From: Chryseobacterium gleum
Lineage (GTDB): Bacteria; Bacteroidota; Bacteroidia; Flavobacteriales; Flavobacteriaceae
Direction of reading: 5' to 3'
Assembly (NCBI GenBank): GCA_945897915.1
Contig: CAMDGB010000003.1
Span: forward strand, 62,001 to 126,000
DNA length: 64,000 bases
The position numbers and the translations under genes were made by a program. Of this stretch, positions 1 through 31,961 are shown in pieces. The stretch's first letter is position 1. Each line of letters opens with the position of its first letter. The notes beneath the pieces were generated by a model. It was not told the origin of the DNA. It was given only the letters and a program-made list of their open reading frames with translations, and made no database searches.

Positions 1-578
1 TTGTCAAATTCTTCTTCCCAAGTGGCTTTCGCTTGACGACAAATTTTTATGCCTTTAATTTTATCTGTTTTTGGAAAATTTACATTCAAAACCACACCTT
101 CAGGTAAGCCGTTTTCTAAAACTTCTAAGGCAATTTTCTTGATAAAAGGTTTGATAAATTCAAAATTTGCATCCCAACTGTAATCACATAATGAAAATCC
201 AATAGAAGGAATGCCTTCAATACCGCCTTCCACAGCAGCACTCATCGTACCAGAATAAATTACATTTATAGAGGAATTAGACCCATGATTGACACCGGAA
301 ACACATAAATCAGGTTTACTTTTCATCACTTCATGTACGCCCATTTTTACACAATCTACTGGTGTTCCAGAACAACTGTAGGCATTATTTGCACCTAAAA
401 AATTAGGAATATGTTTCAATTCTAAAGTGCTATTTATGGTAATAGCGTGACCCATGCCACTTTGTGCGCTATCTGGCGCAATGATATAAATTTCACCTAA
501 TTCATGCATGACTTCAACTAAAGCTTTTATGCCTGGAGCAGCAATTCCGTCGTCATTAGTAACTAGAATTTTTTTCAT
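1..578 (-). CDS. surE: 5'/3'-nucleotidase SurE, C-terminus beyond window
   Basis: SurE is a metal-dependent phosphatase that removes phosphate from nucleoside monophosphates and is often a survival protein of stationary phase. The translation begins MKKILVTNDDGI, the family signature with the two metal-binding aspartates, followed by APGIKAL. A second metal-binding stretch reads SGVNHGSNSS, and the FSLC and VNFP segments also fit the family. About 192 residues are visible of the usual 250 or so. The stop codon lies to the left of the window, so the gene is partial only because of the window edge. It is divergent from the Prc-type protease at 712. Confidence 0.95.
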   Translation of the reverse strand, partial: MKKILVTNDDGIAAPGIKALVEVMHELGEIYIIAPDSAQSGMGHAITINSTLELKHIPNFLGANNAYSCSGTPVDCVKMGVHEVMKSKPDLCVSGVNHGSNSSINVIYSGTMSAAVEGGIEGIPSIGFSLCDYSWDANFEFIKPFIKKIALEVLENGLPEGVVLNVNFPKTDKIKGIKICRQAKATWEEEFD

Positions 579-644
579 TTTACAATTGTGTTAATTTATT
601 TGCTAATTTATTATAATTTATGATTTATTTGCAGATAAAAATAT

Positions 645-652
645 TAAATTTG
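645..652 (+). promoter_or_regulatory. candidate -7 element for the S41 protease gene
   Basis: TAAATTTG fits the Bacteroidota TAnnTTTG -7 consensus and lies 59 bases before the ATG at 712. A TTG at 629-631 is only 13 bases upstream, shorter than the usual 17 to 23, so the -33 box is not convincing. Confidence 0.4.
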
Positions 653-711
653 TTATCTTGTTTTTTTACAAGTAATGGAATGACTATTTGGCACGATTTT
701 AGAAGTTAAAA

Positions 712-2928
712 ATGAAAAAAAGTATAGAATTTATGAAAAGAAATTATAAGGTTTTATTAGTTGTAGGGATATTAGTTGCGGGATTATGGAGTTTTATTCC
801 TTCAAAAAAAATAACCGGCGACGATAAAGATAAAATGTTAATTGAACTGTTGTCTTTTGTGTTAGAAAAAGGTCATTTTTCACCAATTGAAATAAATGAT
901 GAATTTTCTAAAAAAGCGTATGCCGCTTACATTGAATCATTAGATCCTACAAAACGATTTTTCATTCAATCTGATATTACTGAATTTCAAAAATATGAAT
1001 TGGCTATTGATGATATGATTCGTAGCAAAGATTTGGCGTTTTTTGATTTAACATACAAAAGATTAATGTTAAGAATGAAAGAATCCAAAGTAATTTATAC
1101 TAACATTCTTTCCAAACCATTAGATTTAAATGATAATGAAACCATAAATGTAGATTATGAAAAACTACCCTATGCTGCTACTAAGATTGATTTAGATCAG
1201 CGTTGGAGAAAGCAATTAGAACTTGCTGTTTTGAGTGATATTACAGATAAAGAAGACATTCAAAACGCTTTAAAGTCTGAAATTTTAGATGAATCGAGTG
1301 CTACTAAAGTAGAAAAACCGGCAGAAAAAACCGAACCAAAATCTTTTGAAGAATTAGAAAAAACAGCTAGAAAAACCACAGAAAGTAATTTAAATAATAA
1401 TTTTAGTTTCATTGCTGAATTAACTCGTGAAGATTGGTTTACCGTTTATATCAATGCGATTGTAACCCAATACGACCCACATACGTATTATTTTTCTCCA
1501 GAAGATAAAGAGAAATTTGATGTAAGTATGAGTGGAAAATTTGAAGGAATTGGTGCGCGTTTACAAAAGAAAAATGAAGGTATTGAAGTGTCTGAATTAA
1601 TAAGTGGAGGCCCTGCATGGCGAGGTAAATTATTAGAACAAGGCGATGTTATTATTAAAGTAGCCCAAGCAAATGAGGAGGCGATTGACATTGCAGGCAT
1701 GCGATTAGACGACGTGATAAAAAAAATAAAAGGACCAAAAGGAACTTTGGTGAAACTTACCGTAAAAAAAGTAGACGGTTCTGTAAAAGTGGTTCCAATT
1801 GTAAGGGACGAAGTAGAAACTGAAGAAACCTTTGCAAAATCAACCTTGGTAGAAAAAGACGGGAAGTTATTTGGTGTGATTTATTTACCGAAATTTTACC
1901 AAACTTTTGAAAATAGATCTAACAGAGATGCCTTTAAAGATGTAGCTATTGAAGTCGAAAGATTAAAAGCCATGAATGTACAAGGTATTGTAATGGATTT
2001 ACGTGATAATGGCGGTGGATCTTTAGAAACGGTAGTTAAAATGACAGGTTTATTTATTGATAAAGGCCCAGTAGTTCAAGTAAAACCAGCAGGTGGTAAA
2101 GCTCAAATTTTACCAGACTCTGATCCTAAAGTACAATGGAATGGTCCTTTAGTAGTAATGATTAATAATTATTCGGCTTCAGCATCAGAAATATTTGCAG
2201 CTGCAATTCAGGATTATAATAGAGGAATTATTATTGGAAGCAAGCAATCGTATGGAAAAGGGACTGTTCAGAATGTATTTGAATTAAATGAATTTGTTCG
2301 TGGCAATCAATACGGAGAATTAGGCGCTTTAAAAACCACTACTCAAAAATTTTATAGAGTAAATGGCGGCTCTACACAATTAGAAGGTGTAAAAAGTGAT
2401 ATTGTAATGCCAGATCGTTTTAGCTTTATGCAAACAGGTGAAAAAGATGAAAAAAGTGCTTTGCCATGGGATAAAATTGAGCCAGCAATTTATACACCAT
2501 TATTTCAAAACTTTGAAAAAGTAATTGCGAATAGTAAAAAAAGAATTGCTACTAATGATAACTTTAATTTAATTTCCGAAAATGCAAAATGGATTAACGA
2601 TAGAAAAGAAGACAATACTATAAGTTTAAATTATACTGCCTATAAAAAAGAAATTGCCGATATTGAATCGCAAACTAAAAAATTTAAGAGTCTTGAAAAA
2701 TATAAAAACAACCTAAATTTCACTTCTTTACCATACGAATTAGAATTAATGGATAAAGATGAATTGTTAAAAGAAAAACGTGAAAGATGGCATGCAGAAT
2801 TAGTAAAAGATATTTATATGACAGAAACATTAAATGTATTAACTGATTTAACTGTTTTAGACACAAACAAACCTATTGTTAAAACTAAAAAAGATAAAAA
2901 TTTAAAAGAAAAATTAGCTTCAAAATAA
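712..2928 (+). CDS. carboxy-terminal processing peptidase (Prc/Tsp type, S41)
   Basis: This is a periplasmic tail-specific protease of 738 residues that cleaves proteins at their C-termini. A membrane anchor or uncleaved signal covers about residues 12-30 (YKVLLVVGILVAGLWSF). An N-terminal helical region follows, then a PDZ domain at about 280-360 (GIGARLQ...GGPAWRGKLLEQGDVI) and the S41 catalytic core. The catalytic serine is about S490 in NYSASASE, with its lysine partner about K516 in SYGKGTVQ. A lysine-rich C-terminal region resembles the DUF3340 part of E. coli Prc. Length and order match Prc rather than the shorter CtpA. It stands alone, with a terminator just downstream. Confidence 0.93.
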   Translation: MKKSIEFMKRNYKVLLVVGILVAGLWSFIPSKKITGDDKDKMLIELLSFVLEKGHFSPIEINDEFSKKAYAAYIESLDPTKRFFIQSDITEFQKYELAIDDMIRSKDLAFFDLTYKRLMLRMKESKVIYTNILSKPLDLNDNETINVDYEKLPYAATKIDLDQRWRKQLELAVLSDITDKEDIQNALKSEILDESSATKVEKPAEKTEPKSFEELEKTARKTTESNLNNNFSFIAELTREDWFTVYINAIVTQYDPHTYYFSPEDKEKFDVSMSGKFEGIGARLQKKNEGIEVSELISGGPAWRGKLLEQGDVIIKVAQANEEAIDIAGMRLDDVIKKIKGPKGTLVKLTVKKVDGSVKVVPIVRDEVETEETFAKSTLVEKDGKLFGVIYLPKFYQTFENRSNRDAFKDVAIEVERLKAMNVQGIVMDLRDNGGGSLETVVKMTGLFIDKGPVVQVKPAGGKAQILPDSDPKVQWNGPLVVMINNYSASASEIFAAAIQDYNRGIIIGSKQSYGKGTVQNVFELNEFVRGNQYGELGALKTTTQKFYRVNGGSTQLEGVKSDIVMPDRFSFMQTGEKDEKSALPWDKIEPAIYTPLFQNFEKVIANSKKRIATNDNFNLISENAKWINDRKEDNTISLNYTAYKKEIADIESQTKKFKSLEKYKNNLNFTSLPYELELMDKDELLKEKRERWHAELVKDIYMTETLNVLTDLTVLDTNKPIVKTKKDKNLKEKLASK

Positions 2929-17174: not shown

Positions 17175-17237
17175 GTTTTAGTTAATTTTAATTTTTATTA
17201 GACTCTAAAAATAGCTAATAGTTACATGATAATTTGT

Positions 17238-17245
17238 TATTTTTG
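17238..17245 (+). promoter_or_regulatory. -7 element upstream of the secreted protein / dNK pair
   Basis: TATTTTTG matches TAnnTTTG and lies 17 bases before the ATG at 17262. It supports that ATG over an upstream in-frame ATG at 17226, which would precede the transcript start. Confidence 0.55.
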
Positions 17246-17261
17246 TGTTAATATTAAAGCT

Positions 17262-18023
17262 ATGCGATTTTTTCTTCTATTTATTTTATCCGTTTATTGT
17301 GCTTCCGCTCAAAATATTGATGTGGAGCGTGTAGACAATAAACCATATAAGTACAGTACTTTTTGGGGGAATGATTTATCTGGTAACGCCTATTTTTCTT
17401 CAAGTAATAATTTGTATAAAATTAATAAAATAGACACGTTAAATTATTCTAACAACACATTTGGAAAAATTTCAAGTGTAGAAACTTTTAATATGTTGCA
17501 AACGCTCGTTTTTTATAAAGAAAACAATGCTTTTGTTTTGTTAGATGCTCAGCTTAATGAAATTAATACGACTATTTTTTCGGAAATTAATTGCGAATAT
17601 TTAAAACCTGCTTCTCAAAATGAACTTTGGTTTTATGATAGTTTAAGTCAGCTAATAGGTTTGTATAATTTGAATTCTAAACAATTTAAATTTCTATCTA
17701 ACCCAATCAAAAACATTAAGTATTCTCAATCTGATTATAATTATTTGTATTGGGTTGATAATGAAAACAATTGTTATTCAATTTCTAAATTCGGTAAAAT
17801 AATAAATTTAGGCAAATTAATTGCTTTTGAAAAAATATTTTTTTTAAGTCAAAGAGATTTGTTTTATCTTTTTGATGATAAAATTTATTATTATACCTTT
17901 GAAAATCAATTATCAACAAGAATAAATATTAATGAAAATTTGATAGCTAATTTTTTCTATACAGATGGAATTTTTTCTATTTTTACCAACAATCAATTAA
18001 TTACCTATCAAATAAAAAAATAA
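17262..18023 (+). CDS. secreted protein of unknown function, upstream of dNK
   Basis: I do not recognise a named family. The preferred start at 17262 gives a signal peptide (MRFFLLFILSVYCASAQ) and a mature protein of about 235 residues. It is beta-rich and full of Tyr, Asn and Phe, with repeated short units such as ELWFYDSLSQLIGLYNL and YNYLYWVDNENNCYSI, which suggest propeller-like blades. It ends three bases before the deoxynucleoside kinase ATG, so the two are probably co-transcribed, though no functional link is evident. Confidence 0.75.
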   Translation: MRFFLLFILSVYCASAQNIDVERVDNKPYKYSTFWGNDLSGNAYFSSSNNLYKINKIDTLNYSNNTFGKISSVETFNMLQTLVFYKENNAFVLLDAQLNEINTTIFSEINCEYLKPASQNELWFYDSLSQLIGLYNLNSKQFKFLSNPIKNIKYSQSDYNYLYWVDNENNCYSISKFGKIINLGKLIAFEKIFFLSQRDLFYLFDDKIYYYTFENQLSTRININENLIANFFYTDGIFSIFTNNQLITYQIKK

Positions 18024-29288: not shown

Positions 29289-30113
29289 ATGAAACAATAT
29301 CACGATTTAGTAAAACACGTATTAGTAAACGGAACTCAAAAAGGCGACCGCACAGGAACAGGAACCATTAGTGTTTTTGGTTATCAAATGCGTTTTGATT
29401 TAAGTGAAGGTTTTCCTATGGTAACTACCAAAAAGTTACATTTAAAATCGATTATTTACGAATTACTTTGGTTTTTAAAAGGCGAAACCAATATTGCCTA
29501 TTTACAAGTAAATGGCGTAAAAATTTGGGATGCTTGGGCAGATGAAAACGGCAATTTAGGACCAGTTTATGGACACCAATGGAGAAACTGGAACAGCGAA
29601 GAAATTGATCAAATTACTGAATTAATAGAAACCTTAAAAACCAATCCAAATAGTCGTAGAATGTTAATTTCGGCTTGGAATCCATCAGTTTTGCCAGATA
29701 CTACCGTTTCTTTTTCAGAAAATGTGGCTAATGGAAAAGCTGCTTTACCACCATGTCACGCGTTTTTTCAATTTTATGTTTCTGATGGAAAATTATCGTG
29801 TCAATTGTACCAACGTAGTGCCGATATTTTCTTAGGCGTACCGTTTAATATTGCATCTTATGCCTTATTTACCATGATGGTAGCGCAAGTTTGCGGATTA
29901 CAAGCGGGCGAATTCATCCATACTTTTGGTGACGCACATATTTACAACAATCATATAGAACAAGTGAATTTACAATTGAGCCGGGAACCAAGAAAACTAC
30001 CAATAATGAAATTGAACCCAAATGTAACCAACATTTTCGATTTCACTTTTGACGATTTCACTTTGGAAAGCTATAACCCACACGAGCATATTAAAGGTGC
30101 GGTTTCTGTTTAG
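29289..30113 (+). CDS. thyA: thymidylate synthase
   Basis: ThyA methylates dUMP to dTMP using methylene-THF and releases dihydrofolate. The 274-residue protein has all landmarks: [38 protein letters not shown], the nucleophile C156 in [30 protein letters not shown] and [11 protein letters not shown] short insertion (ENVANGKAA) precedes the catalytic loop. Dihydrofolate reductase, which recycles its product, is encoded downstream at 31464, with a repeat-protein gene between them. Confidence 0.97.
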
Positions 30114-30194
30114 AAAATAGATAAAAAATAAAAATGATAATTTTATAAGTAAGCAAAAATTTTATCTAAAACAACGAAAATAAAGAAACAAGAA

Positions 30195-31298
30195 ATGAAA
30201 AAAATACTATTGTTTATATATACCTTATTGGGTATTAGTTCATTTTCACAAAACATTTATGTAACGAAAAGAGATTATACAAGTTTAAATTCAAGTACTT
30301 ATATACATTCATTACAAGAAATAAATCAAACAAATGGAAATGTTATAAATAATTACAATTACACAACACTTTTTCCGAGTAGTTATTCTCCAGAAAGTCT
30401 AACATATAATGTACAAACAAATGAAATTTTCGGTATTTCAGGCAACATAATTACAAAATATAATAAAGCAACCGGATTAGAAACATCATTTAGTTTACCA
30501 ACTATCCAAAATGTTTTTTATAGAAATTTAATTATTGCAAATAACCGATTATTCATAATTAAAACAGATTATACAAGTATGAATATAAGTACATATATAC
30601 ATTCACTACAAGAAATAAATCAAACAAATGGTAATATTATAAATAATTATAATTATACAACATTTTTTCCGAATGGAAATTCACCAAAAAGTTTAACATT
30701 TAATGTTGTAACAAAAGAAATTATTGGTATTTCTGATAATATTATAATAAAATATAATATACTAACAGGATTAGAAACATCATTTAGTTTACCAACTATC
30801 CAAAATGTTAATTATAGAAATTTAATTATTGCAAATAACCGATTATTCATCACTAAAAGAGATTATACAAGTTTAAATTCAAGTACTTATATACATTCAT
30901 TACAAGAAATAAATCAAACAAATGGTAATGTTATAAATAATTATAATTACACAACAATTTTTCCGAATGGTAATTCACCTGATAGTTTAACATTTGATAA
31001 TTTAACAAAGGAAATATATGGTATTTCAGGTAACACAATTGTAAAATATAGTATAATAACCGGATTAGAAACATCATTTAATTTACCAACTATACAATAT
31101 ATTGATTATAGTGATTTGATATCTATAAATTCTGAAGATGTTTTAGGCTTAGATGAAAATAAAACAAGTAAAGTAAAGGCAAAGGTTCTAAAAGCATATA
31201 ATTTATTAGGTCAAGAAATCCCAATTGAAACTTACAACCAAATTATTATTTTGAAATTTGATAATGGTAAAAGTAAAAAAATATATAATCAAAAATAA
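30195..31298 (+). CDS. secreted protein with three near-identical 98-residue repeats
   Basis: No named family recognised. The 367 residues start with a signal peptide (MKKILLFIYTLLGISSFS). Three repeats follow, each exactly 98 residues, with the core TYIHSLQEINQTNGN, then INNYNYTT, then GLETSF(S/N)LPTIQ. A C-terminal piece (KVLKAYNLLGQEIPIETYNQ, then IILKFDNGKSKKIYNQK) resembles the end of a T9SS type A sorting domain, although the usual FPNP start is missing. The repeats suggest a beta-propeller or solenoid surface protein. It interrupts the otherwise metabolic thyA-folA neighbourhood. Confidence 0.8.
   Translation: MKKILLFIYTLLGISSFSQNIYVTKRDYTSLNSSTYIHSLQEINQTNGNVINNYNYTTLFPSSYSPESLTYNVQTNEIFGISGNIITKYNKATGLETSFSLPTIQNVFYRNLIIANNRLFIIKTDYTSMNISTYIHSLQEINQTNGNIINNYNYTTFFPNGNSPKSLTFNVVTKEIIGISDNIIIKYNILTGLETSFSLPTIQNVNYRNLIIANNRLFITKRDYTSLNSSTYIHSLQEINQTNGNVINNYNYTTIFPNGNSPDSLTFDNLTKEIYGISGNTIVKYSIITGLETSFNLPTIQYIDYSDLISINSEDVLGLDENKTSKVKAKVLKAYNLLGQEIPIETYNQIIILKFDNGKSKKIYNQK
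30273..31130 (+). repeat. three tandem 294-bp direct repeats inside the gene
   Basis: The landmark GATTATACAAG recurs at 30273, 30567 and 30861, an exact 294-base period. Units 1 and 3 are more alike at their 5' ends than either is to unit 2. Unit 3 loses identity near 31115. Confidence 0.92.
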
Positions 31299-31463
31299 TT
31301 CTGCAATTAATAATAAATTTAAATTTGATTTAGTCCTGCTACTCCGTCAATCGAAAGCTCCTTCAAAAAATACATTTGTTAATATTTGTTTTCCATTTTT
31401 TCTTATTTCATAAAATTATAATTTCACTCAAATTCCTTATCTTAGCACTTCAAATTAATTTTT

Positions 31464-31961
31464 ATGCTAATACTAATCGCTGCAACATCTACAAACAATG
31501 CTTTGGGAAAAGACAACCAATTGGTTTGGCATTTACCAGATGATTTTAAACGTTTTAAAGCGTTAACTACCGATCATTATATCATTATGGGAAGAAAAAC
31601 CTTTGAAAGTTTCCCAAAACCTTTACCAAACAGAACGCATGTAATCATTACTCGTCAAAGTAATTATGAAGCACCAGAAGGATGTATTGTGGTTTCAAGC
31701 TTAGAAGAAGCCATAAAAGTTTGTCCAAAAAATGAAGAAGTTTTTGTTGTTGGCGGTGGCGAAATTTACAAACAAGCTATCGATATTGCAGATAAAGTCG
31801 ACCTTACTCGCGTGCATACTTCCGTAGAAGCCGATACATTTTTTCCAGAAATTAATCCAGAAAAATGGGAACTTATTTTTGAAGAACTACATATAAAAGA
31901 TGAAAAACATGCGTTTGATTTTACGTTTCAAACTTTTATTAAGTCAAATCGTAATTCGTAA
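31464..31961 (+). CDS. folA: dihydrofolate reductase
   Basis: FolA reduces dihydrofolate to tetrahydrofolate with NADPH. The 165-residue protein has the full set of motifs: AATSTNNALGKDNQLVWHLP with the conserved Trp, DDFKRFKALT with the acidic active-site residue, IMGRKTFESFPKPLPNR for NADPH binding, VVGGGEIYKQAI and TRVHTSVEADTFFP. Normal length. The gap of 165 bases upstream holds no gene; a minus-strand 18-codon frame there is too short to support. Confidence 0.96.
   Translation: MLILIAATSTNNALGKDNQLVWHLPDDFKRFKALTTDHYIIMGRKTFESFPKPLPNRTHVIITRQSNYEAPEGCIVVSSLEEAIKVCPKNEEVFVVGGGEIYKQAIDIADKVDLTRVHTSVEADTFFPEINPEKWELIFEELHIKDEKHAFDFTFQTFIKSNRNS

Follow-up and report, generated by a model that had tools for sequence, protein, structure and literature searches.

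Three double-blade units, probably recopied within the gene, in a predicted exported six-bladed beta-propeller of Chryseobacterium gleum

How closed repeat proteins hold the size of their ring while their repeats get recopied is an open point, and it is raised by a gene that lies between thyA and folA in Chryseobacterium gleum. The gene consists of three head-to-tail, in-frame units and sits within a 64,000-nucleotide stretch of contig CAMDGB010000003.1, which we refer to as the window. It poses the question of how the three units came to be alike, and of what holds their number. The answer that we consider probable is that the gene specifies an exported six-bladed propeller of three two-blade modules, that these modules have been recopied inside the gene, and that their number is held by closure of the ring.

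The three units and the predicted fold

The three units of the window gene are spaced exactly 294 bp apart (Table 1), and TRF reported a repeat with a period of 294, 2.9 copies, 85% matches and a score of 1271. Identity of the gene with itself at an offset of 294 was 83%, compared to a maximum of 40% among 1000 single-base shuffles. When aligned in the protein frame, the units share 84.4% (1-2), 81.3% (1-3) and 82.3% (2-3) of their DNA sequence and 78%, 70% and 74% of their protein sequence, respectively, with units 1 and 2 being the closest pair over the entire unit length. A first-pass annotation of the window had described an exact 294-bp triplication in which units 1 and 3 share long identical stretches; the length, the frame and the stretches (see below) are borne out, but at 81-84% DNA identity the copies are not exact. 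The G+C content of the ORF (21.8%, with a window mean of 31.4%) is the lowest among 37 ORFs compared, which were taken from the window's 58 ORFs of 100 aa or more; the second lowest is that of an ORF at positions 17226-18023 (23.2%). A promoter scan gave 12 sites with 14.5 expected, a terminator scan gave none, and TAnnTTTG words occur twice downstream of the gene and not at all upstream.

Table 1. Features of the window gene and its borders (window positions).
Feature	Position	Strand	Basis
thyA, left border of the slot	29289..30113	+	Pfam Thymidylat_synt, E 2.1e-122
ORF, 367 aa, predicted exported six-bladed beta-propeller	30195..31298	+	ORF list, AlphaFold2, top-ranked solved matches
Probable Sec signal peptide, residues 1 to 18-19	30195..30251	+	By eye from sequence
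Unit 1, 98 aa: blade 1 (three strands), blade 2 (whole), blade 3 (first strand)	30255..30548	+	
Unit 2, 98 aa	30549..30842	+	Unit alignment, AlphaFold2
Unit 3, 96 aa	30843..31130	+	Unit alignment, AlphaFold2
71-bp tract, identical pair	30267..30337 = 30855..30925	both +	
Putative closing strand, residues 303-312, which would finish blade 1	31101..31130	+	AlphaFold2 strand order; L062 likewise
C-terminal tail, 55 aa, 33-49% identity between members	31131..31295	+	Weak likeness to middle of type IX sorting tail
folA, right border of the slot	31464..31961	+	Pfam DHFR_1, E 1.8e-62

In order to model the window protein we used AlphaFold2 with a three-row alignment of this protein and its homologues from the Flavobacteriaceae MAG RE-15aug16-98 (L061) and Flavobacterium sp. 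LE19-8.1G (L062), which gave a model of middling confidence (pLDDT 77, pTM 0.74) with low confidence at residues 1-16. The model contains strands at residues 19-28, 36-43 and 50-55, followed by five sets of four strands and, finally, a strand at residues 303-312. The protein is thus predicted to form six four-stranded blades, two per 98-aa unit, and the last strand would close the ring as the fourth strand of blade 1 (3+1 closure). Placing L062 in the first row of the alignment resulted in the same strand order (pLDDT 74, pTM 0.71).

Comparison of the model with solved structures points to the same overall fold. Foldseek returned 611 solved chains at E <=0.001, led by kelch domains with other kinds of propeller intermixed, and its best 50 matches were likewise a mixture of propellers of several kinds. 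When the chains were ranked with VIA-align (970 chains aligned out of Foldseek's best 1000), the best match was the nidogen propeller (Z 23.6, rmsd 2.6, 245 aligned), with the propellers of LRP6, ROS1, TolB and Keap1 and the designed SAKe6 within about 2 Z of it (Z 21-23 for LRP6, TolB, Keap1 and SAKe6); all six are six-bladed propellers. The window protein therefore resembles the YWTD (nidogen, LRP6) and Kelch (Keap1) propellers, both six-bladed families, in its predicted overall fold, but differs from them in sequence, with 8-15% identity in the VIA-align rows and no Pfam match to either family. Searches of Pfam and NCBIfam gave no match above cut-off for the window protein or its three homologues, and the 12 Pfam families obtained for the window protein at E <=10, a list from which filters may drop weak matches, include neither YWTD (LDL receptor class B) nor Kelch. 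Matches of the window protein to UvrB_inter and SufBD_N, and of the third homologue (L063) to FIBP and DsbG_N, were below cut-offs and mutually unrelated, and we treat them as composition noise. Two matches from a PDB sequence search of the window protein (E 0.44 and 1) were set aside.

With regard to what has been copied, comparing the two blades within a unit with one another gave a score that 14 of 100 column shuffles equalled or exceeded. No likeness between the two blades is thus detectable, and the repeated module is the double blade, as opposed to recent copies of a single blade.

Copying between units in two lineages

Homology among the window protein, L061, L062 and L063 extends over their full length, including the start and the tail, and the window protein is 35-36% identical to L061 and L062 and 57% identical to L063. 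All four of these readable members contain three units of 95-107 residues. The units of L061 and L062 are 20-31% alike inside one protein and 35, 57 and 51% alike when matched by position between the two proteins; judged by these identities, the triplet in L061 and L062 appears old and differentiated. The units of L063, also spaced at 294, share 96-97% of their DNA sequence, and unit protein identity is 94-95% within L063 and 72-78% within the window protein as against 60-66% between the two.

Several lines of evidence indicate that the units of the window gene and of L063 have been copied separately. An unrooted DNA tree of the six units set those of the window gene apart from those of L063 with a support of 100/100. 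Estimates of dS, which are rough given the low G+C content (21.8%) and near saturation between the genes, were 0.34-0.38 within the window gene and 0.04-0.08 within L063 compared to 1.2-1.9 between them; as dS within each gene lies far below that between genes, both sets of copies are younger than the split of the window gene from L063. Purifying selection at the protein level cannot keep synonymous sites alike within each gene, which argues for copying in each lineage. We conclude from these sequence comparisons that the double blade was copied separately in the window and L063 lineages with no change in number. The protein itself is under selection, since 46 of the 98 unit positions are invariant across the six units, including the block IHSLQEINQTNGN, and each of the 15 unit pairs has a dN lower than its dS. 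The first-pass annotation had offered recent expansion or conversion, and it was right in kind, as the units resemble one another more than they do any of those in L063 and units 1 and 3 share the identical tract; a dS of 0.34-0.38, by contrast, speaks against copying that is very recent.

For units 1 and 3 the longest identical tract measures 71 bp, a length that none of 5000 trials with randomly placed mismatches (mean 21.6 bp) reached; for the other pairs it is 42 bp (1-2, p 0.02) and 29 bp (2-3, p 0.13). A tract of 71 bp suggests gene conversion within the window gene, and favours an event of this kind between units 1 and 3 at a later stage. Copy labels were weakly clustered along the unit, with runs-test p values of 0.016 for 288 bases and 0.35 for the first 240.

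In a protein tree of all 12 units, the window and L063 units share an open fork with unit 1 of L061 and L062. Two of its nine inner branches were well supported, grouping by position did not exceed that in shuffles, and it is only the six-unit DNA tree that separates window units from L063 units. The 55-aa tail of the window protein is closer to those of L061 (49%) and L062 (40%) than to that of L063 (33%). Since the tails disagree with the units, where those of the window are nearest L063, the history of the family is not settled. Among the units of L061 and L062, unit 3 comes closest to those of the window gene and L063 (32-42%); given the poor support in the protein tree, we make no claim as to a template unit.

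Together, the model and the unit comparisons make the following mechanism probable. Three two-blade modules of 98 aa would assemble one exported six-bladed beta-propeller, and intragenic recombination, in the form of gene conversion or balanced unequal exchange, would copy one module over the others. This recopying would occur separately in the window and L063 lineages, with L061 and L062 keeping three differentiated modules. The number of modules would stay at three because the C-terminal strand must complete the first blade and so close the ring, and the threefold repeat would present three equivalent ligand sites, making the protein a multivalent binder encoded by a solo accessory gene carried in a variable slot. 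Since six blades make up the modelled ring and the last strand would close it, adding or losing a unit would alter the ring, and ring closure may accordingly be the cause of the constant three units, a constancy seen in a small sample of four members, two of them recopied. A broader proposition, which we advance tentatively and doubt slightly more than we believe, is that the family repeatedly resets its threefold symmetry in more than one lineage, such that the three sites change together while ring size remains fixed.

Known repetitive propellers and competing explanations

Highly repetitive propellers and concerted evolution of propeller repeats are already known (PMC9218822, PMC2873952). 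The window protein resembles the highly repetitive beta-propellers of Pereira and Lupas 2022 (PMC9218822), for which Nostoc WRAP is the type case, in its predicted ring fold and in having repeats that resemble one another more than they resemble the repeats of relatives, a sign that copying followed gene divergence. Within-protein repeat identity above 60%, the threshold of that report, is also found here when two-blade units are compared (window 70-78%, L063 93-95%). However, 92% of that dataset is described as arising from a single blade, whereas the copied unit in the window comprises two unlike blades, and here copying has taken place separately in two related genes with three units each, beside differentiated homologues. 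PMC9218822 reports one propeller amplified from a two-bladed fragment, with 47 blades in all. The survey demanded that single blades be more than 60% identical, a filter that would tend to pass over propellers whose adjacent blades are unlike, and a scarcity of such propellers there need not mean that they are scarce in nature. The same paper states that there is "no counting system", with rings of other sizes expected and found. WRAP constructs of two blades are reported to have assembled as tetramers (PMC6805158).

The Podospora hnwd WD-repeat genes (PMC2873952) are similar in that their propeller repeats are under concerted evolution, there through intragenic conversion and unequal crossing over. 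Unlike the family described here, with three double-blade repeats in four of four members, the hnwd genes vary in repeat number and encode a fungal self-recognition receptor. Our literature searches turned up no gene family in which a two-blade module had been recopied in more than one lineage while the number of modules stayed constant.

A different origin for the likeness of the units would be fresh amplification of each repetitive protein from one free double blade, as reported for WRAP, in which case there would have been no homogenised three-unit ancestor. Independent amplification is reported in PMC9218822 even among propellers more than 80% identical, and the separation of window and L063 units in the DNA tree would fit with it. 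Yet L061 and L062, homologous from start to tail, contain three differentiated units, and one step of amplification alone would not leave the 71-bp tract in units 1 and 3, and we regard new amplification as unlikely.

The first-pass annotation had proposed that repeat number may vary between strains. In-frame tandem repeats and a probable signal peptide are indeed consistent with a phase- or antigen-variable surface protein of this sort, and blade number differs among near-identical paralogues of some cyanobacterial propellers described in PMC9218822. Against such variation stand a count of three units that all four readable members share, the two recopied ones included, a modelled ring that closes at six blades, and identical tracts of at most 71, 42 and 29 bp, which give little ground for slippage. 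Unit counts and model together make strain-variable repeat number unlikely in the window gene, and phase or antigenic variation as an account of the gene seems to us very improbable. Finally, a single ancient triplication kept alike by purifying selection alone would agree with dN below dS in 15 of 15 pairs and with the 46 positions invariant in the window and L063 units, but is scarcely credible given that synonymous sites are alike within each protein (dS 0.04-0.38) and not between (1.2-1.9) and that the DNA tree groups units by protein.

This small family offers both differentiated and more recently copied forms of one predicted six-bladed ring, which makes the idea that closure alone keeps the count a testable one.

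Distribution, the thyA-folA slot and probable export

The gene family is rare, with members in three of 398 genus genomes and in one genome of another genus. A search of 100 relatives gave a match in the window's own genome only. Among the 398 genus genomes, 29 matched at E <=0.1, of which three were convincing (the window's own genome, G173 and G235; E <1e-36) and 26 were dropped; searching the same 398 genomes with a model of the unit recovered these three genomes, each with three units. Searches of 397 family genomes (E <=1e-6) and 241 order genomes each returned the window's own genome and one other, namely G497, which belongs to another genus, and G235, respectively; among 60 relatives of G497 the match was confined to G497. 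The neighbourhoods of the four family genes are all different. Plasmid and phage records contained no match to the window gene at E <=1e-5, and none of 201 pattern stretches for the gene in viral contigs was confirmed.

We rescanned 27 loci from the 26 dropped genomes with the unit model, bearing in mind that preselection of loci flatters the E-values, and four (L004, L006, L017 and L024) rose above the HMMER inclusion line. The matches in L006 and L017 lie inside an ORF that resembles a galactanase by eye, and that in L024 is without any single significant stretch; all three were rejected. The match in L004 (genome G301, minus strand, 1501-1911) scores 22.5 bits and covers part of a divergent unit; it may represent a divergent fifth member cut off by the contig end.

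The position between thyA and folA, which had been noted as an odd place for such a gene, is explained by what relatives carry in the gap. We surveyed 30 loci around the best thyA matches (L031-L060), each extending at most 1.5 kb past thyA; folA was in reach at 19 of them, the other 11 being uninformative as to the content of the gap. At these 19 loci the slot (30113-31464 in the window) was occupied by the window gene at one and was empty at two (L034, L041). Genes for a CBM48-like and a 2TM protein were found at five (L052, L055, L057, L059, L060), a secreted-looking TonB_C or similar protein at seven (L036, L037, L038, L048, L049, L056, L058), and a TPR-like protein (L032, with Pfam matches below cut-off) and a type IX-tailed protein (L053) at one each; the last two contained other ORFs (L043, L046). 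These classes derive from Pfam searches for ten slot proteins (L032, L033, L035, L036, L038, L048, L049, L053 and two from L052), of which that of L038 had no Pfam match, and from inspection by eye for the remainder. As its contents differ across relatives, the interval between thyA and folA is a variable accessory slot with gene turnover, and the window gene is one tenant of many. At L033, from a close relative with 92% thyA identity and one of the 11 loci lacking folA within range, the gene after thyA (47-1378, minus strand) encodes an RCC1-type propeller that carries a type IX tail, a propeller of a family unrelated to that of the window gene beside the same neighbour.

The N-terminus resembles a signal peptide by eye, and the window protein is probably exported; to that extent an earlier assignment as a surface protein is supported, while the type IX sorting tail that might anchor this assignment is absent at curated cut-offs. 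Neither TIGR04183 nor PF18962 was listed for the window protein at E <=10 or for the three homologues at E <=1, and the window gene is not among the 41 TIGR04183 matches in the host genome. A stretch reading YNLLGQ had raised the possibility of a type IX cargo, which we rejected as no curated cut-off was reached. Using our own tail model, built from 16 type IX tails of the host genome, we obtained 8.7 bits for the window protein, 12.0 for L063, 8.5 for L061 and 11.7 for L062, scores that were reached by 6/500, 1/500, 0/499 and 2/500 shuffles, respectively. When the tail was compared with type IX tails by hhalign, local mode gave a probability of 33%, covering 18 columns, and global mode one of 3%. 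Given its threefold repeat, the protein may act outside the cytoplasm as a multivalent binder, lectin-like or adhesive, with three like sites. Elsewhere, on contig C25 of G000, two type IX sorting tails that lie about 6 kb apart (L071, L073) are nearly identical, which suggests that their cargo genes were recently duplicated or converted.
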